From: a virus
Direction: 5' to 3' (one strand)
Virus record (IMG/VR): IMGVR_UViG_3300045581_000282
Span: 1 to 23,730 of that record
Length of the DNA: 23,730 nt
Shown here: piece after piece, positions 2,793 to 18,651 of the stretch
Position numbering within the stretch: the stretch's first letter is position 1
Layout of the letters: each line of letters begins with the position of its first letter
Program-made: the position numbers and the translations under genes
Notes under the pieces: model-generated
Seen by the model: only the letters and a program-made list of their open reading frames with translations
Told to the model about the DNA's origin: nothing
Database searches by the model: none

Positions 2793-2937
2793 TTGCAGTT
2801 TGGCTGGCGATTACCTGAGCAAAGGCATGGAGAGGTTCGCGGAGAACTTCCATGTCGAGTGTCGGGGTGATTGTACATGCCAACACCATGTTGTAGGTGT
2901 CTGGACAATAAAAAAGCCCCTACCGCCGAAGCGGTAA
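2779..2937 (+). CDS. Small Cys/His zinc-binding protein
   Basis: A 52-residue gene nested over the end of the sigma-like gene (14-base overlap). The start ATG at 2779 has a GGAG ribosome binding site seven bases upstream. Metal ligands are arranged as Cys3-x2-Cys6 near the N-terminus, then His25, Cys28, Cys32, Cys34 and His36 (HVECRGDCTCQHH), a pattern typical of small actinophage zinc proteins whose role is unknown. The coding sequence runs into the hairpin at 2915-2942 and its TAA is inside the right arm, so the last residues (KKPLPPKR) are encoded by terminator DNA. It is the last rightward gene of this block and converges on the leftward operon. Confidence 0.72.
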   Translation: MICPSCSLAGDYLSKGMERFAENFHVECRGDCTCQHHVVGVWTIKKPLPPKR

Positions 2938-2942
2938 GGGCT
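2915..2942 (-). terminator. Rho-independent terminator for the leftward operon
   Basis: The arms 2915-2926 and 2931-2942 form a 12-bp stem with one mismatch around CGAA. Read on the minus strand it has a TTCG loop and is followed by a run of six T (complement of the A-tract at 2909-2914). It lies directly after the last leftward gene (stop at 2953-2955). On the plus strand there is no T-tract, so it should act mainly leftward, though the hairpin may also slow convergent rightward transcription. Confidence 0.85.
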
Positions 2943-2946
2943 GAGT

Positions 2947-2961
2947 GTACGATTATCGTAC
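2947..2961 (-). promoter_or_regulatory. 15-bp palindromic site, copy 1
   Basis: GTACGATTATCGTAC with outer T and A. It lies between the operon terminator and the last leftward gene and supplies that gene's ending, Val-Arg-TAA. Unlike most copies it has no leftward gene downstream. Confidence 0.85.
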
Positions 2962-3129
2962 AGGTTCTGCTAAGTGAACATCGTAGTCGTAGACGATGTT
3001 AGAGGTGGAGTTATCTAACTCCCACTCGTTTAGTTCTTCGGCAACTAGGATTGCCTTAGACCTAGATTCTGCTTCTACCTCTTGGACAAAGGTAAAAGAT
3101 CGCTCCTGATAGACAATGTATTTTGTCAT
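2953..3129 (-). CDS. Hypothetical small protein, last gene of leftward operon
   Basis: A 58-residue protein starting MTKYIVYQ. I chose the ATG at 3129 because it overlaps the stop of the upstream gene by one base (TGATG), the operon's usual coupling; an upstream in-frame ATG at 3150 would add seven residues and lie deeper in that gene. The sequence alternates β-like and helical segments (IVYQERSFTFVQEVEAES, then a helix AILVAEELNEWEL), a pattern shared by many small phage proteins of unknown role with a VEAxSxxxAxxxA core. The final codons, Val-Arg-TAA, are made by palindromic site copy 1. No function can be assigned. Confidence 0.65.
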   Translation of the reverse strand: MTKYIVYQERSFTFVQEVEAESRSKAILVAEELNEWELDNSTSNIVYDYDVHLAEPVR

Positions 3130-3323
3130 CAGGCTTCTAGTTTGACCCATTTCATCGCTACGCGGAGAAGGTTGTCGTAGTCGCCTGACATGGAGTCAGC
3201 GAGGTACTGCTCTACCTCGCTATCTGTTGCACCCTTCTTGCGAAGGGCGCGACTTACTGCTGACATTACTGAGAATGCGTTGCCGTCGTCTGGAACGACG
3301 ACAACATCATACATAGGTTCCAT
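3129..3323 (-). CDS. Hypothetical small protein (phage-conserved type)
   Basis: A 64-residue protein with a β-strand start (MYDVVVVPDDGNAF) and two predicted helices (VMSAVSRALRKKGATDSEVE and DYDNLLRVAMKWVKLE). Proteins of this pattern, with a DGNAF-like turn and a GDYDxLL segment, recur in actinophage genomes without known function; I judge this by recognition only. The ATG at 3323 has an AGAAAGGA ribosome binding site, and palindromic site copy 2 ends 13 bases upstream of the ATG. Its stop overlaps the start of the next gene by one base. Confidence 0.7.
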   Translation of the reverse strand: MEPMYDVVVVPDDGNAFSVMSAVSRALRKKGATDSEVEQYLADSMSGDYDNLLRVAMKWVKLEA

Positions 3324-3336
3324 GACATTCCTTTCT

Positions 3337-3351
3337 GTACGATTATCGTAC
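3337..3351 (-). promoter_or_regulatory. 15-bp palindromic site, copy 2
   Basis: Exact GTACGATTATCGTAC, outer bases T and G. It provides the Val-Arg-TAA end of the 39-residue membrane miniprotein and lies 13 bases upstream of the next start codon (3323), just before that gene's ribosome binding site. Confidence 0.88.
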
Positions 3352-3462
3352 GGCTAGTGAGAGAATGATACCAACCGCAAAGAGCGTAGTAAAGGCAGTA
3401 ATCACAATGAGTGACAACTGCTCGCCTACGGACTCCACGAAGTAGTCATATTCATCTTTCAT
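3343..3462 (-). CDS. Membrane miniprotein (39 residues)
   Basis: A short gene starting MKDEYDYFVES. After an acidic N-terminus of about 15 residues it has one clear hydrophobic segment (LSLIVITAFTTLFAVGIILS, about residues 16-36), then AVR and TAA, so a single-pass membrane protein is likely. The start at 3462 overlaps the WhiB gene by 11 bases and has a GAGAGGG stretch upstream. The stop codon is supplied by palindromic site copy 2. Role unknown; small phage membrane proteins can act in lysis, superinfection exclusion or membrane remodelling, and nothing here chooses between these. The hydrophobic segment and operon fit make it credible despite its size. Confidence 0.6.
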   Translation of the reverse strand: MKDEYDYFVESVGEQLSLIVITAFTTLFAVGIILSLAVR

Positions 3463-3784
3463 ATATTGCCACACCCTCTCTTTGTATGTGAGGAATGGTC
3501 AAGAGCATGTCGATTGTTTTCATACCTGACTTCTCCTGAATCTCGGTGCGCTGGAACCAATCCAATCCTGCCCAGATGCCGTAAAGCGTGGTGTAACGGA
3601 TTGAATAGTCGAAGCACTCTTTGAGAGCAGGACAGGTAGAACATATCTCCCTAGCCTTCATCACATTTGGAGTCTTTGTCCACTTCCTGTGTCTCCCCGT
3701 GTTGATTTCCACGGGGAACCACAAGTCGGGATCATGTTCGGTACACGAAGCGTGATTGACGAAGTTAGGCATGTGATTAGACAT
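3452..3784 (-). CDS. WhiB-like Fe-S transcriptional regulator
   Basis: A 110-residue Wbl protein. The four cluster-binding cysteines are Cys14, Cys48, Cys51 and Cys57 (C...CSTCPALKEC), preceded by DPDLWFP (19-24) and followed by the G[VI]W-turn GIWAG (69-73), then a basic tail. Family members bind a 4Fe-4S cluster and contact the principal sigma factor of host RNA polymerase to change promoter choice; phage copies can interfere with host WhiB function. ATG 3784 follows a GAGGTG ribosome binding site; Met5 is an alternative start. Palindromic site copy 3 lies 14 bases upstream. The upstream zinc miniprotein overlaps by eight bases. This gene is the strongest marker of an actinobacterial host. 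Confidence 0.93.
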   Translation of the reverse strand: MSNHMPNFVNHASCTEHDPDLWFPVEINTGRHRKWTKTPNVMKAREICSTCPALKECFDYSIRYTTLYGIWAGLDWFQRTEIQEKSGMKTIDMLLTIPHIQREGVAIYER

Positions 3785-3923
3785 GTTTCACCTCATCTGT
3801 ACGATTATCGTACACATCGAATCGTGCCATAGAACATGAGTAGCAATAGATTCTGACACTACGGAAGTGCTCGGAGACATGGATTGGCTCGTCACACTTC
3901 CAACAGCGTTGTTCTGTTGTCAT
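3777..3923 (-). CDS. Zinc-ribbon miniprotein with palindrome-encoded C-terminus
   Basis: A 48-residue protein starting MTTEQRCWKC. Two CxxC pairs, Cys7/Cys10 and Cys27/Cys30 (CWKC and CYSC), separated by 16 residues, make a typical zinc ribbon. The C-terminal portion VYDNRTDEVKHV contains YDNRT, which is palindromic site copy 3 read in frame. The start at 3923 has an AGAAAGG ribosome binding site about six bases upstream, and the stop lies eight bases inside the WhiB gene. It is too short for routine gene callers. Function unknown; a nucleic-acid or protein-binding adaptor is possible. Confidence 0.7.
   Translation of the reverse strand: MTTEQRCWKCDEPIHVSEHFRSVRIYCYSCSMARFDVYDNRTDEVKHV
3799..3813 (-). 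promoter_or_regulatory. 15-bp palindromic site, copy 3
   Basis: Exact GTACGATTATCGTAC with outer T and A. It is translated as YDNRT near the end of the zinc-ribbon miniprotein and lies 14 bases upstream of the WhiB start codon, immediately before the WhiB ribosome binding site. Confidence 0.88.
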
Positions 3924-3925
3924 TG

Positions 3926-4162
3926 TTACCTTTCTAGCGGAAGTTGACCCGCTAAGTTGCGATAATGCGTGGCTCGCATCATCAGCCGAGTGTGTTCCTC
4001 GGCGTTTCCCTGTGCTAATGCTTGTTCAGCATCGAACAGGAACATTTCAGCGCGTTTGCCGTAGTAAAACGGCGTAGGCGGAACTGGCTTGTACTGCTTG
4101 ACCTTGCGAACACGTTTGAGTTCTTTCTTGACGTGTCGCTTACGTCTGCGCCTACCAGACAT
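3926..4162 (-). CDS. Hypothetical basic protein
   Basis: A 78-residue protein starting MSGRRRRKRHVKKELKRVRK. I chose ATG 4162 because an AAAGGG stretch precedes it and because the longer frame back to 4285 would lie wholly inside the upstream gene with an odd composition. The first 25 residues are almost all Arg and Lys; the rest (FYYGKRAEMFLFDAEQALAQ, then a second helix MMRATHYRNLAGQLP) looks like a helical hairpin. The basic arm suggests nucleic-acid binding. It overlaps the amidotransferase end by 11 bases and stops two bases before the start of the zinc-ribbon miniprotein. I do not recognise a family. Confidence 0.65.
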   Translation of the reverse strand: MSGRRRRKRHVKKELKRVRKVKQYKPVPPTPFYYGKRAEMFLFDAEQALAQGNAEEHTRLMMRATHYRNLAGQLPLER

Positions 4163-5006
4163 CCCAACCACCCTTTGAAGTGACAGGCTCAGACTTGGGC
4201 TTCTTGTCCTCTGGGTCGTAGCACAGACACGCGAGTTCTTCTGCGCTACACCACAGACAACAACGGCACATGGGGCACATGTCACTATCTGCCATCATCT
4301 CCAAGTCTTGCGAGTAGTCGTACGTGCAGACAGAGCAGATGAGTTCTTCTGGCTCGTCGAACATGTACTGATTGACCCTGCCAAGTGTACGATTATCGTA
4401 CGATGAGGAATAAGGCTTGGCATACCATGATAGATAATCCAAGTCGCATGAGTCGTTAGACCACCACACGCCTGACTCATCTATTTTGCCCTTCTCCTCA
4501 TGTATCAGATAACACGTCTGCTTTGCATCAGGATTGAGCGTGAGTACGCATACTTTCGAACCAGATGTGAAGTCCTCGATGAGGTTGTACACCTGCTCAT
4601 TGTCGAGAGCCGTCACACCGCCGATATGCGGTAGCAAGTCCTCGGCAAAGATACGAGTGTCGCTACGAGTGTCTCCCTTTGGCTCGATGATAGGCAAGTG
4701 ACCATTGTGACCAAGATAGGTCAATGGATCATTACCAACCTTGAATGGATGACAGTTGGCTACTGTCTTGTCACCAAGAGTTGCGAAGCGAGCGTGCCAC
4801 ATGGCGAAACTCTCCATGTATTGCTTGCGAAGTTCCAAGAACCTCCTGATGGATTCGTCAGGGTTCATGGTGTGTTCGACTATGATTCGATTCTCGCTTG
4901 GAACTAGAATCGCAAAGCCGAAGCCGTGCGGATTGTTAAGTGCCGAGGCGATGAGTTTATCCTCTGAAGGTATGACGTTCGGAGGTATTACGCATAACAT
5001 ACACAT
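4152..5006 (-). CDS. Class II glutamine amidotransferase-like protein with Cys-rich tail
   Basis: A 284-residue protein whose first ~190 residues match the Ntn-hydrolase class II glutaminase fold, which releases ammonia from glutamine for a partner enzyme. Cys2 directly after Met1 is the expected nucleophile once Met is removed. Other family landmarks are NNPHGFGFA (24-32), HARFAT (71-76), NCHPF (84-88), GHNGHL (99-104) and SDTRIF (115-120). Residues 203-207 are YDNRT, encoded by palindromic site copy 4. After it comes a Cys-rich tail with Cys224, 227, 244, 247, 249, 250, 253, 260 and 262, probably binding zinc. It starts in a TAATG overlap with the amidoligase gene, so the two are likely co-translated partners. 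The acceptor substrate is unknown. Confidence 0.8.
   Translation of the reverse strand: MCMLCVIPPNVIPSEDKLIASALNNPHGFGFAILVPSENRIIVEHTMNPDESIRRFLELRKQYMESFAMWHARFATLGDKTVANCHPFKVGNDPLTYLGHNGHLPIIEPKGDTRSDTRIFAEDLLPHIGGVTALDNEQVYNLIEDFTSGSKVCVLTLNPDAKQTCYLIHEEKGKIDESGVWWSNDSCDLDYLSWYAKPYSSSYDNRTLGRVNQYMFDEPEELICSVCTYDYSQDLEMMADSDMCPMCRCCLWCSAEELACLCYDPEDKKPKSEPVTSKGGWDVW
4387..4401 (-). promoter_or_regulatory. 15-bp palindromic site, copy 4 (inside amidotransferase)
   Basis: Exact GTACGATTATCGTAC, outer T and G, read in frame as YDNRT at the junction between the glutaminase domain and the Cys-rich tail. An in-frame ATG (4364) lies 22 bases downstream, close to the spacing seen at true gene starts in this operon. 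Confidence 0.85.
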
Positions 5007-6670
5007 TAGATTGAACTCCTTTCTGATTCCGTACGATAATCGTACAGAGGTTCGTTGTTGAATGATGCTTCCAAAAGTGCAAAGAGATTCGGGTACTTGG
5101 TGATGTTCTCACCGACATAGCCACAGAATCTAACCCACGACAGAGCCTTGTTAGAGCCTGTCACTTTGAGGTCACGTGTGTATTCGACGGCAGCGTGAAC
5201 GAACTCAAGATTCGCAAGACACCTGCTCGCTTTGAGCGAGCCTTTGAATATGCGTATCTCAATGGTGTTCTGATTCTCCATGTTGATAACGGAGTACCTG
5301 CCATTAGCCTGAGAGTGATGCTTGACTTTATCCCACAGCCTGCCCTTGTCTGAGAAGTCGGCATACTGATTGGATGATCTACCAGCAAGTCGCTCGACCT
5401 GACGTTGATTATCGTAAATCAACTTGCAGAATCTAAGTTCATGCCGTTGCCGTACGATTATCGTACGCTCTAGGTAACTGACATCCATTTCGCCTTCTCT
5501 GCGTGTGTGTATTGGACCGAATCCAACACGCCCCACGTGTACGTGAAAGCCACAGGATGAGTTAGCGTTCCACGAACGGAAGCCCATGCTCTGTGCCTTA
5601 CGCGTAAAGCGCCACGGAAAGTTGGTCTGATATTCTTCGAGTGAGTGAGGATGAGTCACCACCTCGAAGCCGTTATCAACCGAGCCGTCATACTTATAGA
5701 TAGCGCGGTCACCAAGTATGTAAGCCAGTTCTTCGGCGCAGTTATAGAGTTCCCCGTCTGTGGATTCGATTTCTAACTCGAAGCCAAGATAGTAGGGAGC
5801 GTTGCCAAACCTGCCCCAGTATGGTCGGTAGTTGTACGAGTGGATGATTGACTCTCTTTCTTCGTCATCATTGTCGCAACCGCATTGGCGACCATCATTT
5901 TCGCTATACGGCTCGTCACAGTATTCACACAATAAGAAAATGTCATCGTAACAAGATTGACAGAATCTCTCATTGTAATACGTGATAGCCGTATCGCTAA
6001 TCAAGTAGTAGTTCTCGCATGGATTACAGAGGAAATGGTCTGGATGTTCTACTAGTGCCTCCGTTAAATGATCCTCACACAGTAACGTGCCGTCGAAGGA
6101 ACGCGCTGTGATAGCCCACCCTCTGAACGATGGTTGCATCCTGTCATAATACATATGACTTTCATAGCGCCATGTCCGAGAGTAGTGACCATGCCAGTAG
6201 TTACCATTCTCAATGAGGGTAATCCGTTGAGGACAATCCTCAATCTCACAGACTGTTCGTGAACAGTAACCATGAACTGCGACCTCGCCATCTTCTTCCC
6301 TTGATGTCCTGACCATAACAGACGTTTGCCCGTCTAGTATTGGTCGATTGCAACAACGGCAGATGATACGTTGCTCTGTGATATTCGTACGATTATCGTA
6401 CAGATAATCTCTGAAGTGAGCCATATCCCATGCCGTCAGGACATTGTTCTCGAACATGCCCTCTCCATACATGCGCTCTGATGTGTAATGTACGGAAGAA
6501 GGGTCACTCATGTATAAGTTCTCGATTACAATATCGAACTTCATGGTGATGCAAGGTGGACACATCTCATTGAATGAGTATTCCAAGACATCTATTGAGT
6601 AAAGATGATTAGGTCTATTGCAATGGGAGCAATAACCAAGACCTGCGAAGGTTGGATTGTACTGAGTCAT
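5006..6670 (-). CDS. Amidoligase-family enzyme with Cys-rich N-terminal half
   Basis: A 554-residue protein. The C-terminal half (about 290-500) matches phage 'amidoligase' proteins of the glutamine synthetase/GCS-like COOH-NH2 ligase group: YLGFELEIES (294-303), KYDGSVDNGFEVVTHP (326-341), SSCGFHVHVGR (371-381), and NTIEIRIFKGSL (468-479) with acidic and His residues expected to bind metal and ATP. The N-terminal ~270 residues carry many CxxC pairs (14/17, 37/40, 104/107, 215/218, 237/240, 248/251, 263/265), suggesting several zinc ribbons. Three palindromic sites lie inside: YDNRT at 91-95, RTIIVR at 402-407 and YDYRT at 543-547. It is joined by overlaps to a zinc miniprotein upstream and the amidotransferase downstream. 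It probably forms an amide or isopeptide bond; substrate unknown. Confidence 0.8.
   Translation of the reverse strand: MTQYNPTFAGLGYCSHCNRPNHLYSIDVLEYSFNEMCPPCITMKFDIVIENLYMSDPSSVHYTSERMYGEGMFENNVLTAWDMAHFRDYLYDNRTNITEQRIICRCCNRPILDGQTSVMVRTSREEDGEVAVHGYCSRTVCEIEDCPQRITLIENGNYWHGHYSRTWRYESHMYYDRMQPSFRGWAITARSFDGTLLCEDHLTEALVEHPDHFLCNPCENYYLISDTAITYYNERFCQSCYDDIFLLCEYCDEPYSENDGRQCGCDNDDEERESIIHSYNYRPYWGRFGNAPYYLGFELEIESTDGELYNCAEELAYILGDRAIYKYDGSVDNGFEVVTHPHSLEEYQTNFPWRFTRKAQSMGFRSWNANSSCGFHVHVGRVGFGPIHTRREGEMDVSYLERTIIVRQRHELRFCKLIYDNQRQVERLAGRSSNQYADFSDKGRLWDKVKHHSQANGRYSVINMENQNTIEIRIFKGSLKASRCLANLEFVHAAVEYTRDLKVTGSNKALSWVRFCGYVGENITKYPNLFALLEASFNNEPLYDYRTESERSSI
5031..5045 (-). promoter_or_regulatory. 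15-bp palindromic site, copy 5 (centre reversed)
   Basis: GTACGATAATCGTAC on the plus strand, so the central base is opposite to most copies. It encodes YDYRT near the amidoligase C-terminus and lies 24 bases upstream of the amidotransferase start, just before its AAAGGAG ribosome binding site. Confidence 0.87.
5452..5466 (-). promoter_or_regulatory. 15-bp palindromic site, copy 6 (inside amidoligase)
   Basis: Exact GTACGATTATCGTAC, outer C and G. It is read in a different frame from the other internal copies, giving RTIIVR. No obvious gene start follows. A half-matching sequence, GATTATCGTA, lies 36 bases to its left at 5407-5416. Confidence 0.85.
6387..6401 (-). promoter_or_regulatory. 15-bp palindromic site, copy 7 (inside amidoligase)
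   Basis: Exact GTACGATTATCGTAC, outer C and A, read in frame as YDNRT at residues 91-95, between two CxxC-containing segments of the amidoligase N-terminal half. Confidence 0.85.
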
Positions 6671-6771
6671 TCTAAATCCTTCCCGTCATGGATACATTGA
6701 CGACACATGTACCAACCGCCATTTTCTTTGGTAAAGGTAGCGGTATCACCGCATACAAAACATTTTTTCAT
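6667..6771 (-). CDS. Zinc-ribbon miniprotein (34 residues)
   Basis: A very short gene starting MKKCFVCGDTATF. Cys4/Cys7 and Cys23/Cys26 (CFVC and CRQC) form a two-pair zinc ribbon with a 15-residue spacer, and His28 follows. It begins in an ATGA overlap with the membrane miniprotein upstream and ends in an ATGA overlap with the amidoligase, so it is translationally linked on both sides. A GGTGG ribosome binding site precedes the start, and palindromic site copy 8 lies 12 bases upstream of the ATG. Its ribbon resembles those in the amidoligase N-terminal half, so it could be an accessory module, but that is inference. Confidence 0.72.
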   Translation of the reverse strand: MKKCFVCGDTATFTKENGGWYMCRQCIHDGKDLE

Positions 6772-6935
6772 AGTCCACCACCCGTACGATTATCGTACAA
6801 GTCTGCTGTGCAAGAGCCGTAGCCTGAACCAGTCCAACACACGTCACGTGTGAGGTAGGTGAATAGGGCAACGGCTATGAGAACGAAAGTCCACAATACG
6901 AACTTACCCCTGCGAGTAAGTTTGATGTCGTTCAT
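6768..6935 (-). CDS. Membrane miniprotein (55 residues)
   Basis: A short protein starting MNDIKLTRRGKFVLW, with a basic N-terminus, one hydrophobic segment (FVLWTFVLIAVALFTYL, about residues 12-28) and a short polar C-terminus with two Cys. It is probably single-pass with the C-terminus outside by the positive-inside rule. I prefer ATG 6935 because AAAGGA lies about nine bases upstream; an in-frame ATG at 6950 would add five residues with a poorer ribosome binding site. The C-terminal codons include palindromic site copy 8, read as YDNRT followed by GGGL. It is the first gene of the leftward operon, downstream of a possible promoter near 7041-7069. Function unknown. Confidence 0.65.
   Translation of the reverse strand: MNDIKLTRRGKFVLWTFVLIAVALFTYLTRDVCWTGSGYGSCTADLYDNRTGGGL
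6784..6798 (-). promoter_or_regulatory. 15-bp palindromic site, copy 8
   Basis: Exact GTACGATTATCGTAC, outer C and A. It is translated as YDNRT at the end of the membrane miniprotein and lies 12 bases upstream of the 34-residue zinc protein start. Confidence 0.88.
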
Positions 6936-6971
6936 AACCTGTCCTTTCATAGTGCCTTGTTGGGTGTACCC

Positions 6972-6986
6972 GTACGATTATCGTAC
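6972..6986 (-). promoter_or_regulatory. 15-bp palindromic site, copy 9
   Basis: Exact GTACGATTATCGTAC, outer C and A, in the leader of the leftward operon, downstream of the possible promoter at 7041-7069 and upstream of the first gene start by 36 bases (21 if ATG 6950 is used). Confidence 0.88.
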
Positions 6987-7040
6987 AGGTGTGGAAGTAC
7001 GCGAAGGCAAGGACGCATACTTCCACTCTCAAAGTTTCCC

Positions 7041-7069
7041 ATATTAGGCTTCTTAAGTCAAGCGCCCAA
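7041..7069 (-). promoter_or_regulatory. Possible leftward operon promoter
   Basis: On the minus strand, a TAATAT -10-like box (7046-7041) lies 17 bases from TTGGGC (7069-7064). The -10 is good and the -35 matches only half of TTGACA; a better TTGACT (about 7061-7056) is too close to this -10. Initiation near 7034 would leave palindromic site copy 9 in the leader. No better candidate was found upstream of the operon. Confidence 0.4.
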
Positions 7070-7114
7070 CGGCAACGGCTGAGGATGCGGTGACGGCTGT
7101 GTCTGTGCTTCGCG

Positions 7115-7125
7115 CCAACACAAAC
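7115..7125 (+). repeat. CCAACACAAAC repeat, copy 2
   Basis: Exact 11-bp copy in the gene-free stretch, preceded by GCTTCGCG. Minus-strand reading is GTTTGTGTTGG. Confidence 0.55.
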
Positions 7126-7152
7126 TTCGTGCGCTGGGTTGCGGTGAGGACT

Positions 7153-7167
7153 GTACGATTCTCGTAC
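7153..7167 (-). promoter_or_regulatory. 15-bp palindromic site, copy 10 (variant)
   Basis: GTACGATTCTCGTAC: one substitution (A to C) in the right arm, with outer T and A intact. It is the only imperfect full-length copy and sits between repeat copies in the gene-free stretch. Confidence 0.75.
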
Positions 7168-7212
7168 ACAATAACCCGATTGTCGGAACGGCGCTACATG
7201 TGCTATGCGAAG

Positions 7213-7223
7213 CCAACACAAAC
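7213..7223 (+). repeat. CCAACACAAAC repeat, copy 3
   Basis: Exact 11-bp copy, followed after seven bases by a perfect hairpin (GTAGCC-TTC-GGCTAC, 7231-7245). Confidence 0.55.
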
Positions 7224-7272
7224 CCTAGCGGTAGCCTTCGGCTACTCGCCTTATACGGGCGCACACGTGCGC

Positions 7273-7283
7273 CCTACACAAAC
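7273..7283 (+). repeat. CCTACACAAAC repeat, variant copy 4
   Basis: One-base variant of the 11-bp repeat, overlapping the right arm of a seven-base-pair hairpin (GGGCGCA-CACG-TGCGCCC, 7257-7274) and followed by TTTCGCGAGCG. Confidence 0.5.
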
Positions 7284-7350
7284 CTTTCGCGAGCGTGATC
7301 CGAGACGTGATCCGCGTTAGAAATACGATCTTATTTTCAGACATGCGAAA

Positions 7351-7378
7351 GCGCCCGACCCCTTGCGAGGTCGAGCGC
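7351..7378 (-). terminator. Probable terminator of the 7395-8009 gene
   Basis: The arms 7351-7360 and 7369-7378 form a 10-bp GC-rich stem with one mismatch. On the minus strand it is followed by TTT and then mixed bases, a short T-tract. It begins 17 bases past the stop codon of the leftward 204-residue gene. Position supports a terminator; the short T-tract lowers certainty. Confidence 0.6.
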
Positions 7379-7394
7379 CTTCGAGCGTTAGGGC

Positions 7395-8009
7395 TTAGGC
7401 GTTAGCCTTCACCTTCGAGCGCACCGCAGGATGATTAGCGCGGGTCGCTTCGCTCATCTTCTTCACCAGATTGAGGAACTTCTCCCATTGAGCCGAGTCT
7501 CTTGGCGTGATGTCCTCGATGTCAGCCATGAGCCCGATGAACAGAGAGACAGCCGAGTCAGCAGTCACAACCGCCTCGCCAGCCTTGCGACCAGCCTTCG
7601 CCCTCTCGCCCTGAGAAGGAACCGACTTCGCGAAAGCCTCGAAGGATTCAGCCTCGCCAACCTTCGCCTCGAACTCTTTGCCAAATGCTCGCTTGGCTTG
7701 GATTGTCACGTTCAAGACATCTTTCAGAGCCTTAGCCTTGCCACCTTCGAGGCTACGAACCTTCGATGATGCTACGAAGTATTGAGCCGTAGATGGCTTG
7801 ATTGTTGGGAGTGACCCCTTTGCCTCGCTCGCCTCGATTGTCGCCTTCAAACCGCGCACCGAGATTGCGCCAGCCTCTAGCATCTTGACCGCCTTCTCAT
7901 ATACCGAGAGTTCAGCCTCGAAGTTCAACACCGCTTCGAATGATGCTTGGAGTTCAGCGTTCACGCCGTCTAGATTGGAAACCACTTTGCCGTTCTTTGA
8001 TTTAGCCAT
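7395..8009 (-). CDS. Hypothetical helical protein under its own promoter
   Basis: I do not recognise this 204-residue protein. It is rich in Ala, Lys, Glu and Ser, almost entirely helical by inspection, with no Cys and little aromatic content. A basic stretch (ERAKAGRKAGEA) lies at about residues 133-144. The gene uses more GC-rich codons than the adjoining operon. The ATG at 8009 follows GAAAGG about ten bases upstream. It stands alone: a promoter at 8059-8087 with a palindromic site just upstream, and a hairpin terminator after the stop. A stand-alone, strongly promoted gene next to the site array makes it one candidate for the array's DNA-binding protein or for an abundant early protein, but no DNA-binding motif is certain. 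Confidence 0.72.
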   Translation of the reverse strand: MAKSKNGKVVSNLDGVNAELQASFEAVLNFEAELSVYEKAVKMLEAGAISVRGLKATIEASEAKGSLPTIKPSTAQYFVASSKVRSLEGGKAKALKDVLNVTIQAKRAFGKEFEAKVGEAESFEAFAKSVPSQGERAKAGRKAGEAVVTADSAVSLFIGLMADIEDITPRDSAQWEKFLNLVKKMSEATRANHPAVRSKVKANA

Positions 8010-8058
8010 TTTCTTGCCTTTCGATTAGGTGGCTTGGCTTGTCCTTGCCACTAAGAGC

Positions 8059-8087
8059 ATTTTGCCAGAAATCCCCCGTTAGGTCAA
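8059..8087 (-). promoter_or_regulatory. Leftward promoter for the 204-residue gene
   Basis: On the minus strand TTGACC (8087-8082) is separated by exactly 17 bases from CAAAAT (8064-8059), matching the bacterial housekeeping promoter at five of six and four of six positions. The start codon is about 50 bases downstream of the -10. Palindromic site copy 11 is centred about 61 bases upstream of the expected transcript start, a spacing that would suit an activator. Confidence 0.6.
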
Positions 8088-8105
8088 ATCTAAATCCCCC
8101 GCGCC

Positions 8106-8120
8106 GTACGATAATCGTAC
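8106..8120 (-). promoter_or_regulatory. 15-bp palindromic site, copy 11 (centre reversed)
   Basis: GTACGATAATCGTAC on the plus strand, outer C and G. It lies 18 bases upstream of the -35 box of the leftward promoter and is the rightmost copy found. Confidence 0.87.
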
Positions 8121-8170: not shown

Positions 8171-8181
8171 CCAACACAAAC
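8171..8181 (+). repeat. CCAACACAAAC repeat, copy 5
   Basis: Exact 11-bp copy in the divergent control region, followed by GC-rich sequence ending in CTCGCGCTCGCCG. Confidence 0.55.
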
Positions 8182-12433: not shown

Positions 12434-12841
12434 ATGTCAATGCAAGATATGCCTGGAGGTCCAGGACCGTTTGCGCGAAGGAATGACCTTGGCAACGTTA
12501 AGAAGATTCAGCGCGAAGGAAAAAACCTAGCAGAAGCACCTGGTGGTTCTTATGGCGAGCGCAAAGCCATTCAAGAAACAGCACAAGGCGCATCAACTCA
12601 AATGCCTCAACCTACAACTGGTTTTAATCCTAGTATGTTGCCTTCTGTTAACGCATTTGCACCTGGTACCCCTGGTGTTCCATTAAGCAACGGAGCAGCT
12701 GGCGGACCAGGAAGTGCTATTCAACAGACTCCAGTTGATGATATTGATTCTGGTGCTGCACTTGCTCGCGCTATTTTTGCTGCAAATCCAACATCTATGA
12801 ACGCTAGACTTGTAGAAGCATACGAAGAAATAGGTAAATAG
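12434..12841 (+). CDS. Hypothetical Gly/Pro-rich protein in head module
   Basis: A 135-residue protein, mostly low complexity: Gly, Pro, Ala and Gln dominate residues about 5-105 (for example MPGGPGPFARRND and AFAPGTPGVPLSNGAAGGPG), with a short helical C-terminus (ALARAIFAANPTSMNARLVE). It is probably largely unfolded. Its TAG stop overlaps the GTG start of the next gene by one base (TAGTG), so the two are probably coupled. It could be a linker or chaperone for the large virion protein downstream; this is only positional inference. Confidence 0.68.
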   Translation: MSMQDMPGGPGPFARRNDLGNVKKIQREGKNLAEAPGGSYGERKAIQETAQGASTQMPQPTTGFNPSMLPSVNAFAPGTPGVPLSNGAAGGPGSAIQQTPVDDIDSGAALARAIFAANPTSMNARLVEAYEEIGK

Positions 12842-15800
12842 TGCCAGGGACAAATCTGTCGCCTGCTGCTCAGGCACTGTACACCAATAAGAGTGAAGCC
12901 ATGGCGCGTACTGTTCGCATCCAAATGGCTAATCTTACGCCTGACATGTACAAGAACTATGAGGATATTGCTTCTAAGTATCCATCTATCAGTCCAGATT
13001 TGATTATGGGTATGGTCAAGCAAGGCTTGAACGCGTCTACCCCTGGAATAGACAAGATAGTAACGCTTGATGGTATATCTCAATTAAAACGTGACTCTAT
13101 GAACGTCGACAAGATTAAGTCGACTGTAGATAAAGACAAAGGTTTTCTTGGCGCAATCGGCGGTGCTTACAGAGATTACATTTACGACCCACTCAAAGGC
13201 ATTACTAGAGTTGCTTTTGCTACCCTTCGCTACCCATATGATCTTGTAACTACGCTTACACGTGACGTATTTGCTTTTGAAGAACCAGCAGGTTCTCAAA
13301 CAACTCAATTTTTCAAAGACTTGGGTACACTTGGTGGGCAAAATACTCAACTTGGTGCTCTTATTGCAGATGCAGTTGGTGGCAAAAAAGGCGTAGATAC
13401 TGGTTCTGGTTTTTTCATTAACCCTAAAAGCCGTGTGGGTAAAGCAAATGCAAAAGCCATGTCATCATACGGTACTATTGAGGGTGATTCTTTTACTATT
13501 GGCCGTAATATATTCCGTGCTTTGGCTGATAATCCAGACAAGACTGCTTATAAAATATCATCTGGTATTGTCGATGCAGTTCTCAACGTAGCATTAGACC
13601 CTTCAACGTGGTTTTTTGGCGCAGGTGCCGCTTCAAAGATTCTTACAGGATCAAAAGAACTTGCCAAGGCTAAAGAAGTATCTAAAATTTTTGCTGACGG
13701 TAGCGTAGAAACCATTGCCAAGGCTACTAAAAAGCGTGTATCTAATAATCTTGCACGTAACGAACGTAAGTTGCTTGAACTGGAAGCCAATCGAACCGTA
13801 CAAGCTGAGAAAACAGTAAGTAAAATTCTACAAACAGAAGCAGACAGCTTCAAAGCATACGGAACTGACGCTACTGCACAGCAAACATTAAGTAGTGGAA
13901 ACCTTGCTCAGTGGATTACTACCGAGCCGAAGATTCAAAATGGCGATATGCTGCGTGGTCTTGATAGTTTAATTGCTGACCATAAATCTCTTGAAGGATT
14001 CTCCAGTGGTTACATCATGCTGGATGAGGCACCTGAGGCTGGCAAGGTATCAATCGGTGTCCACGTAGATGATGAGTACTTTGTAACTGGTTTAGAAAAG
14101 GTTAAGCTAAATCTTCTAGACCTAGCTGATGACATGTCTAGCAAAACAGCTAAGCAAGTCCAGTCTGAAACCAATAAACGTAACATGCTCATCGAGCAAA
14201 TCAACGATATTGCCAAAGATCCTAATGTTTCTCCAGAAACGCGTGCTGCTTTTGCTAAGCTTGCTGAAGAAATCAAAGTTGACGCCATGGACCTTAAGGG
14301 TTTTTCATGGGCTAAATCTCAACTCGCACTAGGAGATGAGCCAGTAAAAAACATTGGTTACATGTTGCGTCAACTTGTTGATAGCAAGAATGTAAATGCT
14401 GTAGAACTCTTTACAGAAACAGTGATGAAGATATGGAAAGCGGACGGATTTACTAATGTTCGCACTGCACTTGGTGGCACTGGTGGAGTTCTTATTACTA
14501 ATGCAAAGAAGATTGCAGCTAATCACGCTCAAATTGGTTATGCTTTATCAGATCTGGCTCAACCAACCAATCTTGGAGCTAACGTAGCCAAGTTATTGCA
14601 GACCCTGGGTGATAACGATGCTCAGATTGCCAAAACGCGTGCCAAAGTAGATTCTCTTCGTGAACAAGACAAGGTTATTAAGCAGCAAATCAAAGATATT
14701 GACCTGTATCGTCAGTATGCTAATAATGATCCAGATATGCTGCGCGAGATGGTCAATCATGACTCCAACTGGCAGAATATAGAAAATATTCTTAAGTTAA
14801 AGCCAGATATTAACCAAAAAGATGCTTTAGCCGAGGCTGTTCGTGAGAAACTTGGAATCATCGACTTTGCTGGTGGTGGAGTTGCTGAGGTTCCTGAGTA
14901 TGCTAAGGTGCTTAAGTACATGCTTGGACGTCAGTTTCAAGAAGTAGCAGAAGTCGTAGCTAAAGAAAAGAACCTTGGTAGAATCCGTAGGCTTTTCGGC
15001 AATAAGTTAGATGCTGAAATGGTTATAGCACTTGGTGCTGCCGAAAACTCAGACGACGTACTTCGTGTGTTTTTGCGCCAGATGGGTTCTCCAGAGACTG
15101 ATCCGCAGATTTTTAAGTCACTTGCACTACGCGGTGAAGCTGCTAAGTTAGTTGCTAATCCATTAGCACGCCTTGTACAACCAATCAATCTGGTTCCGCT
15201 TCGCGCTCTTGAGGCTTTAGATAAAAGTTTCAATAGATTCTTTGTTCGCTCTACGGCACTTAATCTTAATGATTTAACTGGTCTTACCAATGGAGTAGAA
15301 GACTGGATTAGTTCCTCTCAGTTTAAGACTCTTATCGGTAAAGAAGCTCAAGAGAAGCTTATTGATGATGTAACGGAAAAGTTACTACGCTCCAACAACG
15401 AGCAACAAAGAGCGGCCATTATTGCTGACTCTATTGCTGGCGCTATTAGAGATGGTGCAAAGCGTTTAGGTTTAGATGAAGATGAGACTAAAAAACTTTA
15501 TGATATGGTCAAACTGAGCGGTAAAGTTCGTGCTCAGGAAACCGCATATACTGTTGGTAGAGTTATGGATGGTGCTGATCCAGAGATAGTATTTGCTGGA
15601 GATGAAGCAGTATCTCTTGGTAAAGGTATATCTTACTTCCAGCTTATAAAAGGTACAGTATTCCTACCAGATAGTAGGGAAATATTAAAGTCTTTTAACA
15701 AATACGCTTTATCTTCTACACGTGATAAAATAAAATCAGGTCGTATTCTTGCTGAAGAAGTAGGAGATGTTTGGCGTACAGCCCAGTTGGCATTCCGCTA

Positions 15801-18651
15801 TTCTTATATCCTACGTAATATTGGTGAAATGCAGATGCGCCAGCTTCTTTCTGGCCATACAAATATTATTACTAATCCTCTTCAGTTTATATCTATGGTT
15901 ATGGCTAACAGCGGTAAGAGCAATTTCCTTACTAAGCGTATAGCTAAGTACCAGTATGACCTAGCTGGGAACAGATTTGCTAACGAGTTGGCTGATGGGG
16001 AATACCTTGAAGCCATACGTGGATATCAGATAAACGCATTCCGCAGAGGTTCTGTATCAGACTATAGAGGTAATCGTAGTTCTGAGTTATTCAAATTCTA
16101 CAAAGTGCTTGAGGCTAACCCTCAAATGAGTAAAGAAACCCAGAAACAGTTCTGGAATGGTCTTGCTTACACTATCAATCGATTTGCTAGCGACCCGATC
16201 AATAGCAAGATTGCTCGCTTAATGGCTGTTGGCGATGAGAATGCTAAAAGAGCGTTCGTTAAGGGTATTGCAGATGACTTTGATAATCCTAATGGACTTA
16301 TCCAACAGTACATATCTGGTGTATTCAAAGAAAATGAAGGCATCTTCCGTATCTTTTTCAAAGATGTAAATCTTCCAGAAGAAAAGTTATTGACTAAAGA
16401 TAACCTTTCTCTAGAAAAGATGTTCATATTTTTCTTTGATGAAGCTCAAGAACACACCATAGCTGGTCAGATTAGAGCTATTGCTGGTCAAGGGCCACAG
16501 TCCAAACGTATATTCGACATACTTGCAGATGAAGATGTTATAAAAGCACCCTGGTCTGCTAACGTAAAAACAACTCGCGAGTTTGATGCGTTAGAAGGCA
16601 AGTTCGCCTCTCAACTAGAGAAAACCTTTACACTTGACGATATCAGGGGTTCTCGCGTTTTGAGTGAAAAAGAAGCTGCTATGGGCAAACAATCTGCAAA
16701 AGAAATCAATAGGATTGTTGACGTATTCTTTAACTACGCTACTAAACTAGAGTCTAAATATAACTTTGGTCCTGAATACCAAATGGCATATTGGGACTTT
16801 GTTGGTAGATACGCTACCATGCTTAGCACCAAAGAACTCAAGGAAGTTGCTGTTAAGGCTCAACGCTCCCTTGCTCCTCTACGTATCGGTGGCAAAGTAG
16901 TTAAGAATGATGCTGGAGAAGAAATTGTTGTCGGCGGTAAAGTTTTAGGGCGTAAACATCCTACACTGCGTGTGATCGAATCAGAACTTAAAAAGCGTGC
17001 CAAAGGTAAAGGCAACTTATCTGCTGATTCTAACTGGGTTGCTGTTCATCAGATGGCTGCTCGTGAGGCATCAAAGTATGTTAAAGACTTATTCTACGAT
17101 GCTAGCCGTCAAAAACAGTGGGCTCAGGCATTCCGATTGGTTGCTCCGTTTGCTCAGGCTCACACCAACACGATTTCAAAGTGGGCGCAACTTACTTCTC
17201 GTAACCCATTACCAGCGTATAGATTTGCTAAGGCTCTTGATGGTTTGACCAAAGAAGGATCAAACGTCATCTATGATGCCACGGGTATGACATATGATGA
17301 CCAACAGGGATTCTTGTACTCACAAGAAGGGCGAGATGGGAAGCAGTTTAAGATTCCTTTGGTAGGAAACTTCCTCGGCGCACTTGTTGGTAAATCTTTG
17401 AATATGAAAGATGCCTTCCAAGTAACTGCACCACTAGAGTCTCTTAACCTAGCCTTTGGTCAGGTAAACCCATTGATTCCAGGGTTCGGTCCTGCAGTGC
17501 AACTAGCGTTTACTGGCACCCAGAAAGTAGAAGCGTTTGGACCAGGATACCAAATCCTCAGAGATATTATTACCCCATTCGGACAAGCTGATAGCATAGA
17601 AGACATAGTATTTCCTTCTTGGTTCAGAAAAAGCGCACTGTTCTTCTTGGGCAACAATCCAGAAGTACAACGCCGTACAAAAGACTGGGCTTCCTACCTT
17701 GCTTCTACAGGTGAGTATGGAGACAACCCGTTAGCAAATGATGCGGCTAGAACACAGTTGTTTGCTGATGCAGAGAAGTTATCTAGGAACCTTGGTATCG
17801 TAATGGGTATCTTCCAAAGTATTTCACCAGCAACTCCATCTTCTGAGATTCTTGCAAAAATCAAGAATCCAGAAAACAAAATGAATTTCATGACGATGAC
17901 GATGCTGTATGAACACTTTAATCGTATTACCAATGCTAACCCTGGTAACTATCAGGCTGCTGTTCGTCAGTTTGCTGAGACTTATGGAAAGAATAACCTG
18001 TTGGCTATTATGGGCGGAACCACAAGTGCGGTTCGTGGAACCGATGATGCTTGGACATTTCTTAACAACAATCCAGATGCTGCTGCTAAGTATGCTCGCA
18101 ACCCAGGAGATATAGTTCCATTCTTCTTCCCTGGTGGAGAGTTCTCAGTTAAATACAGGAACTGGCAAGTAGGCACAGGAGCTAGGCGCCAACTCAACTC
18201 TCAAGAACTTGCTCAAGAAGCAGAGGGCATGATTTATACCATGCTTAAGTCTCAAATTGCAGAAGAGCAAATAGCCAATGGCTATCCTCAGTTCTGGTAT
18301 GTACAGAAAGTTTCAGAACTTGATAAACAGTTCGGTGCTAGACCACCAGATACGACTGTATCAGGAACCGCTCAAGAGAAGATTGCTCGAGTCGGAGAAG
18401 CTCTTAATGACCCAGCATTTCAAGATTCACCAGTTTATCAAGAGACGTTAGAATTCTATACTCAGTATCAAGAGTTTGCAAAGTTATTGAATAACCTCAA
18501 AGTGTCTAACTATGCTGAGATTACCTCTAAGGGTGGATACCCAACGCTTATGAGGAACCAGTTAGTAGCTACAGCAGAACGTCTTATGCAGCAGAATCCG
18601 TCGTTTAGCCGAATGTATTACGGCGTATTCTACGGTCAAGTGGAAGGTTAA
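12841..18651 (+). CDS. Giant probable internal virion (ejection) protein
   Basis: A 1936-residue protein, the largest in the window, between portal and capsid genes. It starts with GTG at 12841. It is mainly helical with many amphipathic segments (for example YIYDPLKGITRVAFATLRYP near residue 117 and IVDAVLNVALDPSTWFFGAG near 244), a coiled-coil-like stretch at about 585-620 (AQIAKTRAKVDSLREQDKVI), and near 1425-1460 FRLVAPFAQAHTNTISKWAQ, a pattern I associate with phage internal virion or polyvalent proteins. No lysozyme, protease or polymerase motif was recognised. Size and place suggest a capsid-internal protein ejected with DNA; an alternative is a large portal-associated structural protein. 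Its stop overlaps the next start (TAATG). Confidence 0.72.
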   Translation: MPGTNLSPAAQALYTNKSEAMARTVRIQMANLTPDMYKNYEDIASKYPSISPDLIMGMVKQGLNASTPGIDKIVTLDGISQLKRDSMNVDKIKSTVDKDKGFLGAIGGAYRDYIYDPLKGITRVAFATLRYPYDLVTTLTRDVFAFEEPAGSQTTQFFKDLGTLGGQNTQLGALIADAVGGKKGVDTGSGFFINPKSRVGKANAKAMSSYGTIEGDSFTIGRNIFRALADNPDKTAYKISSGIVDAVLNVALDPSTWFFGAGAASKILTGSKELAKAKEVSKIFADGSVETIAKATKKRVSNNLARNERKLLELEANRTVQAEKTVSKILQTEADSFKAYGTDATAQQTLSSGNLAQWITTEPKIQNGDMLRGLDSLIADHKSLEGFSSGYIMLDEAPEAGKVSIGVHVDDEYFVTGLEKVKLNLLDLADDMSSKTAKQVQSETNKRNMLIEQINDIAKDPNVSPETRAAFAKLAEEIKVDAMDLKGFSWAKSQLALGDEPVKNIGYMLRQLVDSKNVNAVELFTETVMKIWKADGFTNVRTALGGTGGVLITNAKKIAANHAQIGYALSDLAQPTNLGANVAKLLQTLGDNDAQIAKTRAKVDSLREQDKVIKQQIKDIDLYRQYANNDPDMLREMVNHDSNWQNIENILKLKPDINQKDALAEAVREKLGIIDFAGGGVAEVPEYAKVLKYMLGRQFQEVAEVVAKEKNLGRIRRLFGNKLDAEMVIALGAAENSDDVLRVFLRQMGSPETDPQIFKSLALRGEAAKLVANPLARLVQPINLVPLRALEALDKSFNRFFVRSTALNLNDLTGLTNGVEDWISSSQFKTLIGKEAQEKLIDDVTEKLLRSNNEQQRAAIIADSIAGAIRDGAKRLGLDEDETKKLYDMVKLSGKVRAQETAYTVGRVMDGADPEIVFAGDEAVSLGKGISYFQLIKGTVFLPDSREILKSFNKYALSSTRDKIKSGRILAEEVGDVWRTAQLAFRYSYILRNIGEMQMRQLLSGHTNIITNPLQFISMVMANSGKSNFLTKRIAKYQYDLAGNRFANELADGEYLEAIRGYQINAFRRGSVSDYRGNRSSELFKFYKVLEANPQMSKETQKQFWNGLAYTINRFASDPINSKIARLMAVGDENAKRAFVKGIADDFDNPNGLIQQYISGVFKENEGIFRIFFKDVNLPEEKLLTKDNLSLEKMFIFFFDEAQEHTIAGQIRAIAGQGPQSKRIFDILADEDVIKAPWSANVKTTREFDALEGKFASQLEKTFTLDDIRGSRVLSEKEAAMGKQSAKEINRIVDVFFNYATKLESKYNFGPEYQMAYWDFVGRYATMLSTKELKEVAVKAQRSLAPLRIGGKVVKNDAGEEIVVGGKVLGRKHPTLRVIESELKKRAKGKGNLSADSNWVAVHQMAAREASKYVKDLFYDASRQKQWAQAFRLVAPFAQAHTNTISKWAQLTSRNPLPAYRFAKALDGLTKEGSNVIYDATGMTYDDQQGFLYSQEGRDGKQFKIPLVGNFLGALVGKSLNMKDAFQVTAPLESLNLAFGQVNPLIPGFGPAVQLAFTGTQKVEAFGPGYQILRDIITPFGQADSIEDIVFPSWFRKSALFFLGNNPEVQRRTKDWASYLASTGEYGDNPLANDAARTQLFADAEKLSRNLGIVMGIFQSISPATPSSEILAKIKNPENKMNFMTMTMLYEHFNRITNANPGNYQAAVRQFAETYGKNNLLAIMGGTTSAVRGTDDAWTFLNNNPDAAAKYARNPGDIVPFFFPGGEFSVKYRNWQVGTGARRQLNSQELAQEAEGMIYTMLKSQIAEEQIANGYPQFWYVQKVSELDKQFGARPPDTTVSGTAQEKIARVGEALNDPAFQDSPVYQETLEFYTQYQEFAKLLNNLKVSNYAEITSKGGYPTLMRNQLVATAERLMQQNPSFSRMYYGVFYGQVEG

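Follow-up and report, generated by a model that had tools for sequence, protein, structure and literature searches.

The viral DNA analysed here, positions 1 to 23,730 of IMG/VR record IMGVR_UViG_3300045581_000282 (hereafter the window, 23,730 nucleotides), carries a leftward operon on its minus strand, spanning 2947-8120, in which an amidoligase (AL) and a class II glutamine amidotransferase (GAT) are accompanied by an array of short palindromes and by a leader protein encoded by the first gene. Among the genes compared, the leader gene is the one that tracks the palindrome when related phages are set side by side. On balance we favour, with reasonable though not high confidence, a joint reading in which AL and GAT make an amide while a dimer of the leader protein binds the palindromes and represses or blocks transcription of the operon. 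All the evidence is computational. In our view the palindrome system matters more than the enzyme pair, and it is described first.

The palindrome array and the leader gene

The operon contains 11 copies of GTACGATWATCGTAC, one of them mismatched, against 0.02 expected, and none is found elsewhere in the window. Most of them stand just 5' of a start codon, three are located inside AL and GAT, and the spacing between neighbours does not exceed 953 bp. The sites and the elements that frame them are as follows.

8106-8120: palindrome 1, upstream of the promoter
8059-8087, minus strand: likely operon promoter, TTGACC-17-CAAAAT, from a consensus scan
7395-8009, minus strand: leader protein, 204 amino acids, the operon's first gene, proposed binder of the palindromes
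7836-7862, minus strand: proposed recognition helix, leader residues 50-58 (SVRGLKATI); K55, V51 and Q76 track the GTACGAT palindrome type
7153-7167: palindrome 2, one mismatch
6972-6986: palindrome 3, before a 60-amino-acid membrane miniprotein
6784-6798: palindrome 4, before the zinc-ribbon miniprotein
6387-6401: palindrome 5, inside AL, read YDNRT
5452-5466: palindrome 6, also inside AL, read in a different frame as RTIIVR
5031-5045: palindrome 7, at the AL end just before the GAT start; its counterparts in relatives have near-identical flanks and other palindromes
4387-4401: palindrome 8, inside GAT
3799-3813: palindrome 9, before WhiB
3337-3351: palindrome 10, before a 64-amino-acid protein
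2947-2961: palindrome 11, just before the operon terminator
2915-2942, minus strand: intrinsic terminator at the operon end, a 12-pair stem followed by a T run

The initial annotation, which dealt with 4152-6771, left the array unmentioned, although the sites starting at 4387, 5031, 5452 and 6387 fall inside that interval. The two AL palindromes are read in different frames, indicating that selection acts on DNA or RNA and not on protein; a protein-level motif was set aside on the same ground (readings YDNRT, RTIIVR and VRLSYD). A pattern search for palindromes by pair spacing found nothing.

An IMG/VR search with GAT as the query gave 73 loci, and the relatives carry the array in the same operon and places, each with its own palindrome, 11 types in all. 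Nine are of the 15-bp class (GTACGAT-W-ATCGTAC, GGTCGG-NTT-CCGACC and those with the half-sites GTTAGGA, GTCTGAT, GTAGGAT, GCAGGAT, GTTGGAT, GTGCGAT and GTGGGGA), and two are 16-bp forms (GTTTGGA-NN-TCCAAAC and GTACGAT-AT-ATCGTAC). One phage has one type in all or nearly all of its copies, and the phage's own type is present within 60 nt before GAT in 46 of 48 phages. The exchange is seen in three loci (L006, L014 and L026): around the site before GAT, the flanks TGAAAACTAACC and AGAAAAGAGTAAGCCA are nearly the same in all three, with a single base changed in L014 (matching flanks of 12-16 nt), and the cores within them are GTACGATTATCGTAC, GTCTGATTATCAGAC and GTTAGGATTCCTAAC. The near-complete genomes carry the array in this operon only, and a pattern like TTGAC...ATTCTCTTA precedes the leader gene in most relatives. 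No such array was found in G025 and G026, two genomes devoid of the leader gene, or in the isolated Planktophila phage E7. As separate observations, the 8-11 sites of an array differ in concert between L006, L014 and L026 with flanks nearly unchanged, and two loci (L052 and L053) with a distinct leader subfamily carry a GTACGAT array with one extra bp between the half-sites (16 bp), which makes them a natural test of dimer spacing.

Leader and array come and go together: among 44 loci spanning the terminase to AL, both are present in 34 and neither in 10 (one locus of the 34, L022, was counted as concordant with its leader open reading frame present). When pairs of phages with 94-99% identical terminases (TerL) were compared, the leaders were 80% identical if the palindrome was the same (n=10) and 25% identical if it was different (n=29). 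In the same pairs, the identities with matching and non-matching palindromes were 92 and 90% for GAT, 96 and 97% for the phosphoesterase, and 90 and 88% for the sigma factor. By regression on GAT, the excess identity in same-palindrome pairs was 28.7 points for the leader, 7.1 for WhiB, 2.2 for AL and 1.3 for the sigma factor. The 11 types require 10 changes on the leader tree, which is the minimum, compared with 14 on the TerL tree, 14 on the AL tree and 12 on the GAT tree, as obtained with a quick method. Finally, 23 further loci, collected with leader sub-family alignments and fetched by leader sequence alone, all contained the predicted palindrome (23/23), some of them in a form with a single mismatch or in just one copy close to a contig end. 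The strongest controls are these leader-fetched loci and the near-identical phages with differing palindromes.

Part of the leader, namely residues 51-55 and 76, follows the palindrome at the level of single residues. The GTACGAT-type leaders, 14 of 14 from several deep subclades and some of them less than 40% identical to that of the window, share S50-V51-R52-G53-x-K55 and Q76-Y77. Outside this type K55 is found in the GTAGGAT type only, which has the same GTA start of the half-site. Closely related leaders of the GCAGGAT, GTTGGAT and GTAGGAT types, elsewhere about 70-90% identical, differ at positions 51-55, which form part of a predicted helix. For the leaders that are furthest apart, the alignment is uncertain. 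The AlphaFold model of the leader is confident and all-helical, with a predicted local distance difference test (pLDDT) score of 86. The protein has no Pfam match and no significant PHROG match, and its profile gave against PDB sequences only weak matches to designed helical proteins, which we took as composition artefacts. Foldseek found for the model one viral match, an unnamed protein (E 0.0017, probability 1.00, TM score 0.37). A tblastn search of 50,697 phage records with two leader types returned nothing, and a pattern search for the leader gene in 84,980 bacterial and archaeal genomes found none. In two loci with close terminases and the same palindrome type (L005 and L011), the leaders belong to two distant GTACGAT subclades, as though one leader had given way to a different protein that recognises this site.

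Possible roles of the leader and its array

Co-occurrence and co-variation establish the coupling of leader and palindrome, and from them we infer DNA binding, a dimer and repression; together, the two would form a co-evolving regulator and operator array, resembling stoperators but palindromic. The first palindrome lies mostly upstream of the likely promoter, in the window and in many relatives, and since the sites are also palindromic, they are most simply read as DNA targets of a dimer. Dimers of the leader protein would thus occupy the palindromes, which are spread over the whole operon, and would repress or block its transcription at the promoter and further along, the leader gene first. 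The combination appears to be a phage gene switch of a new, self-specific kind. As each lineage has its own leader and palindrome pairing, the protein of one lineage should not act on the operon of another. In a cell that is already infected, the early operon of an incoming phage of matching type could then be silenced, which would give new types an advantage, and such exclusion during infection would explain the diversification. A search of 11 near-complete genomes yielded neither a tyrosine nor a serine recombinase, ParABS not having been searched for, and this result, together with the failure to find the leader in the phage records or in the 84,980 genomes, means that classical prophage immunity is not supported. 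A broader proposal, which we advance tentatively as a possibility, is that the leaders form a new protein family that binds specific DNA sequences through a recognition helix open to exchange, and that leader and array could serve as a self/non-self switch in non-integrating phages, each lineage silencing the early operon, amide enzymes included, of superinfecting phages of its own type, escape being achieved by changing the protein and all the sites together.

Several points weigh against repression through DNA binding and against its extension to superinfection. Foldseek of the leader model against the PDB gave nothing significant, so that a DNA-binding fold is unsupported. Depending on the phage, the site nearest to the promoter lies on its upstream or its downstream side, and simple promoter repression is therefore not established. 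The central base of the palindrome is biased in orientation in some genomes, for example 8/8 T in L007 and 7/7 A in L056, a bias that a fully symmetric DNA site would not need. Most of the sequences are metagenomic contigs of related phages and not independent samples; since many loci are closely related, the counts overstate independence. As for the anti-superinfection role, it is pure inference.

That same central-base bias would suit a role at the RNA level, in which the palindromes act as hairpins upstream of ribosome sites and the leader binds them to control translation, termination or mRNA cleavage. Many palindromes are located 10-25 nt upstream of start codons, and their arms could pair as a 6-bp stem. 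However, the first site, often upstream of the likely promoter in the window and in many relatives, would not be transcribed from it, sites also occur in mid-gene and before the terminator, and one stem sequence is kept in all the copies of a phage, whereas a simple need for hairpins would let the stems drift. An RNA-level role thus seems less likely than DNA binding, and we regard it as improbable; palindromes acting as RNA hairpins only were considered and set aside. Still less probable is a system for partition, packaging or DNA compaction instead of a gene switch. Centromere-like systems likewise pair repeated palindromes with a dedicated co-evolving protein, and the spacing of the palindromes is fairly regular, mostly 150-1300 bp, but the sites are restricted to one operon, which they bracket from promoter to terminator, and no lysogeny gene that would need partition was found, ParA itself not having been searched for. 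Finally, a mobile or selfish repeat spreading through the operon, which could account for copies both between genes and in stretches that encode variable protein loops, is hardly credible, as each phage has one leader-matched type at conserved positions with conserved flanks and no copies elsewhere in the near-complete genomes.

If the leader does bind the palindromes, the 11 natural pairings of protein and site in close relatives, with few candidate contact residues, would allow the recognition code of an unknown protein family to be read almost directly. They also raise the questions of why phages in which no lysogeny module was detected diversify an apparent immunity specificity, and of how a whole array changes together.

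The amidoligase and glutaminase pair and its surroundings

The operon order is leader, small proteins, AL, GAT, basic protein, zinc protein, WhiB and small proteins. The two enzymes and the miniprotein that precedes them are encoded as follows.

6667-6771, minus strand: zinc-ribbon miniprotein, 34 amino acids, CxxC-x15-CxxC, from its reading frame
5006-6670, minus strand: AL, amidoligase of the glutamine-synthetase/GCS fold with a Cys-rich N-terminal half, 554 amino acids (Amidoligase_2, PF12224)
4152-5006, minus strand: GAT, class II glutamine amidotransferase with a Cys-rich C-terminal end, 284 amino acids

The initial annotation had described overlapping genes for an amidoligase with a Cys-rich N-terminal half, a class II glutaminase-like protein and a zinc ribbon, and the reading frames, the Pfam and PHROG matches and the motifs bear this out. 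The start ATG of AL overlaps the TGA of the zinc-ribbon miniprotein, for which blastp found matches in the window's own copies only, and the start ATG of GAT overlaps the AL stop codon. AL passes the Pfam cut-off for Amidoligase_2 (23.8 bits, cut-off 22). In an alignment of 69 sequences, with 67-69 letters per column, E298, E300, K326, D328, S330, E336, H376, H378, N463, E471 and R473 are invariant. A search with P0002 as the lone query, using back-translated patterns, returned no viral contigs; these patterns corresponded to variable regions. The AlphaFold model of AL (pLDDT 79) matches glutamine-synthetase-type folds in the PDB: the YbdK-type ligase 1tt4, glutamine synthetases and GmaS, and more weakly the Pup depupylase Dop. 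What AL shares with the superfamily of glutamine synthetase, GCS2 (YbdK), GmaS and the Pup ligase and depupylase is therefore the predicted fold, whereas a sequence search of PDB chains found no match. A Pup-directed role of AL, prompted by the Dop match, was set aside, since a Methylophilales phage has the pair as well and Pup would not be expected in its host.

GAT carries the complete class II signature: C2, R73, T76, H86-P87-F88, H100-N101-G102, S115 and D116 do not vary in any of the 74 sequences. We take R73, N101-G102 (the oxyanion pair) and D116 to be glutamine-binding residues, from the roles known in GlmS-type enzymes. GAT matches an unnamed phage family (PHROG 25883, E 2.8e-35) and more weakly a GlmS-type PHROG (9.8e-6), and a sequence search of the PDB gave weak class II matches only. 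Counting against the enzymatic side of the joint reading, GAT stays under the Pfam cut-offs, with 20.5 bits versus 23 for GATase_4 and 19.8 versus 27 for GATase_6. A score cut-off is not a biochemical feature, and by motif and PHROG match we place GAT as a distant member of class II. The cysteines of the AL N-terminal half and of the GAT C-terminal end are nearly invariant inside this phage group.

Of the viral loci whose upstream sequence is long enough, 68 of 68 have AL immediately 5' of GAT and on its strand, with gaps of -1 to 36 nt; the same order is found in mycobacteriophage Marvin (gp105-gp106), OM43 phage MEP402 (gp06-gp07) and the spring-water podovirus ctgrD200. The N-terminal Cys nucleophile at position 2 of GAT is kept in these three, as are the other active-site residues, the single exception among those compared being K326, which is Glu in the podovirus. 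The Marvin and MEP402 pairs thus have the same two enzymes, gene order and active-site residues as the window, with about 27-33% identity and another gene context, and tblastn found no leader protein in either phage. The Marvin GAT has the Cys-rich end in common with that of the window, while the Cys-rich N-terminal half of the window AL is much longer than in Marvin and MEP402. Neither MEP402 nor the podovirus has the zinc end of GAT, and many of the AL cysteines are missing in both, so the zinc parts, which the initial annotation had put forward as possible target readers, are dispensable for the pair. As for the earlier proposal of paired enzymes for amide synthesis, the catalytic residues show no loss on alignment (69 AL and 74 GAT sequences) and the linkage is conserved, so that a two-enzyme amide-forming system is well supported; such a system is not novel, since these precedents exist and the pairing is already in the literature. 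The passages on the pair in PMC10580990, citing Iyer 2009 and Mageeney 2012, where the pair was first described, propose cell-wall modification, superinfection exclusion and metabolite synthesis, and Phage-ZRK32 carries an amidoligase and a GATase with a nitrogen-metabolism proposal (PMC10945688).

The catalytic parts are recognised by sequence and fold, and the most likely chemistry is glutamine-dependent amidation of a carboxyl group. GAT would split glutamine and hand the ammonia to AL, which would use ATP to amidate the carboxyl group; the probable substrate is a cell-wall peptide or a protein of the host. In a rather unlikely alternative, AL is not fed by GAT and couples a carboxyl group with an amine or an amino acid, GAT acting separately on the same molecule. 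The fold relatives of AL include users of amines or protein side chains (GmaS, Dop), and in Arthrobacter cluster AL phages the amidoligase adjoins an AIG2-like protein, a GATase not being named there (PMC5513430); however, the two genes always lie side by side, both in this group and in three unrelated phages, and GAT retains in its active site the standard residues that bind glutamine. It seems quite improbable that the pair is a metabolic helper with which the infected cell would use nitrogen better, a role proposed for Phage-ZRK32: other nitrogen genes were not recognised in the operon, zinc modules and co-transcribed regulators would be unexpected for a plain metabolic enzyme, and the growth effect of ZRK32 was not traced to these genes. 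Unrelated phages with very different hosts carry the pair, and its invariant residues and strict linkage make a simple assay feasible.

Two further genes of the operon were identified.

3926-4150, minus strand: conserved basic protein, 3' of GAT, by blastp
3452-3784, minus strand: WhiB-like regulator (PF02467, E 7.1e-13)

The basic protein has blastp matches in 58 loci, a tally that counts the window's own copies. The initial annotation had read WhiB, the basic protein and membrane miniproteins as hints of a host-directed function. WhiB is confirmed, and the basic protein and hydrophobic miniproteins are present as open reading frames, but WhiB is frequent among actinophages (PMC10202952, PMC6802176) and for this reason says little about the AL and GAT pair. 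By terminase, the nearest isolated phages are the Planktophila phages E7 (59% identity) and F5 (58%), whose hosts are 'Ca. Nanopelagicales' (PMC10202952). This kinship and the presence of WhiB make a freshwater actinobacterial host likely, and the window is likely part of a phage of such bacteria.

Other features of the window were also noted. A sigma-factor-like protein (2052-2792) is below the cut-off for Sigma70 region 4 and matches a PHROG sigma-K factor (1.3e-21); its gene ends beside the operon terminator, so the two units converge. For the metallophosphoesterase gene (1300-2058), relatives are mostly either about 40-44% or about 81-89% identical to the window, whereas the neighbouring genes vary smoothly, which looks like exchange between two old alleles. 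A single open reading frame of 1936 amino acids in the structural region (12841-18651) is present in 11 of 11 genomes compared (1922-1957 amino acids). The motif GTTTGTGTNGG occurs in five copies against 0.04 expected, all on the minus strand (7115-7283, 8171-8181 and 2713-2723); four of them are within non-coding parts of the palindrome-bearing operon, and similar motifs are visible in relatives.

Comparison with known phage repeat systems

The closest parallel is the repressor and stoperator system of cluster A mycobacteriophages (L5, TipsytheTRex; PMC6550527, PMC9283540), in which many copies of one site are also found at promoter and non-promoter positions, and in which stoperators and repressor diverge together between relatives (PMC6550527), as leader and palindrome do here. 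However, cluster A stoperators are 13-bp, asymmetric, oriented with transcription and spread genome-wide, whereas the present sites are 15-16-bp palindromes, with the central-base bias remaining in some genomes, and lie within one operon. The cluster A repressor is a monomer with a helix-turn-helix (HTH) and a stoperator domain (PMC9283540), in contrast to the leader, which has no Pfam match or significant PDB fold match, and cluster A phages are temperate, whereas no integrase was found in the 11 near-complete genomes. Arrest of transcription elongation and immunity are further properties of the cluster A repressor, and an integrase or ParABS goes with the temperate character of these phages. 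The defining cluster A features, namely an asymmetric site, genome-wide spread and an HTH plus stoperator domain, are thus lacking in this array. Cluster K mycobacteriophages carry start-associated sequences (SAS) and an extended form (ESAS), repeats located just upstream of translation starts, as are most palindromes here; ESAS has inverted repeats, and the consensus varies somewhat among subclusters (PMC3203893). SAS is 13-bp, asymmetric and tied to translation starts, whereas the palindromes also occur in mid-gene and upstream of the promoter. Unlike SAS and ESAS, the palindrome is replaced as a whole from one relative to another and has an identified partner protein that matches it.

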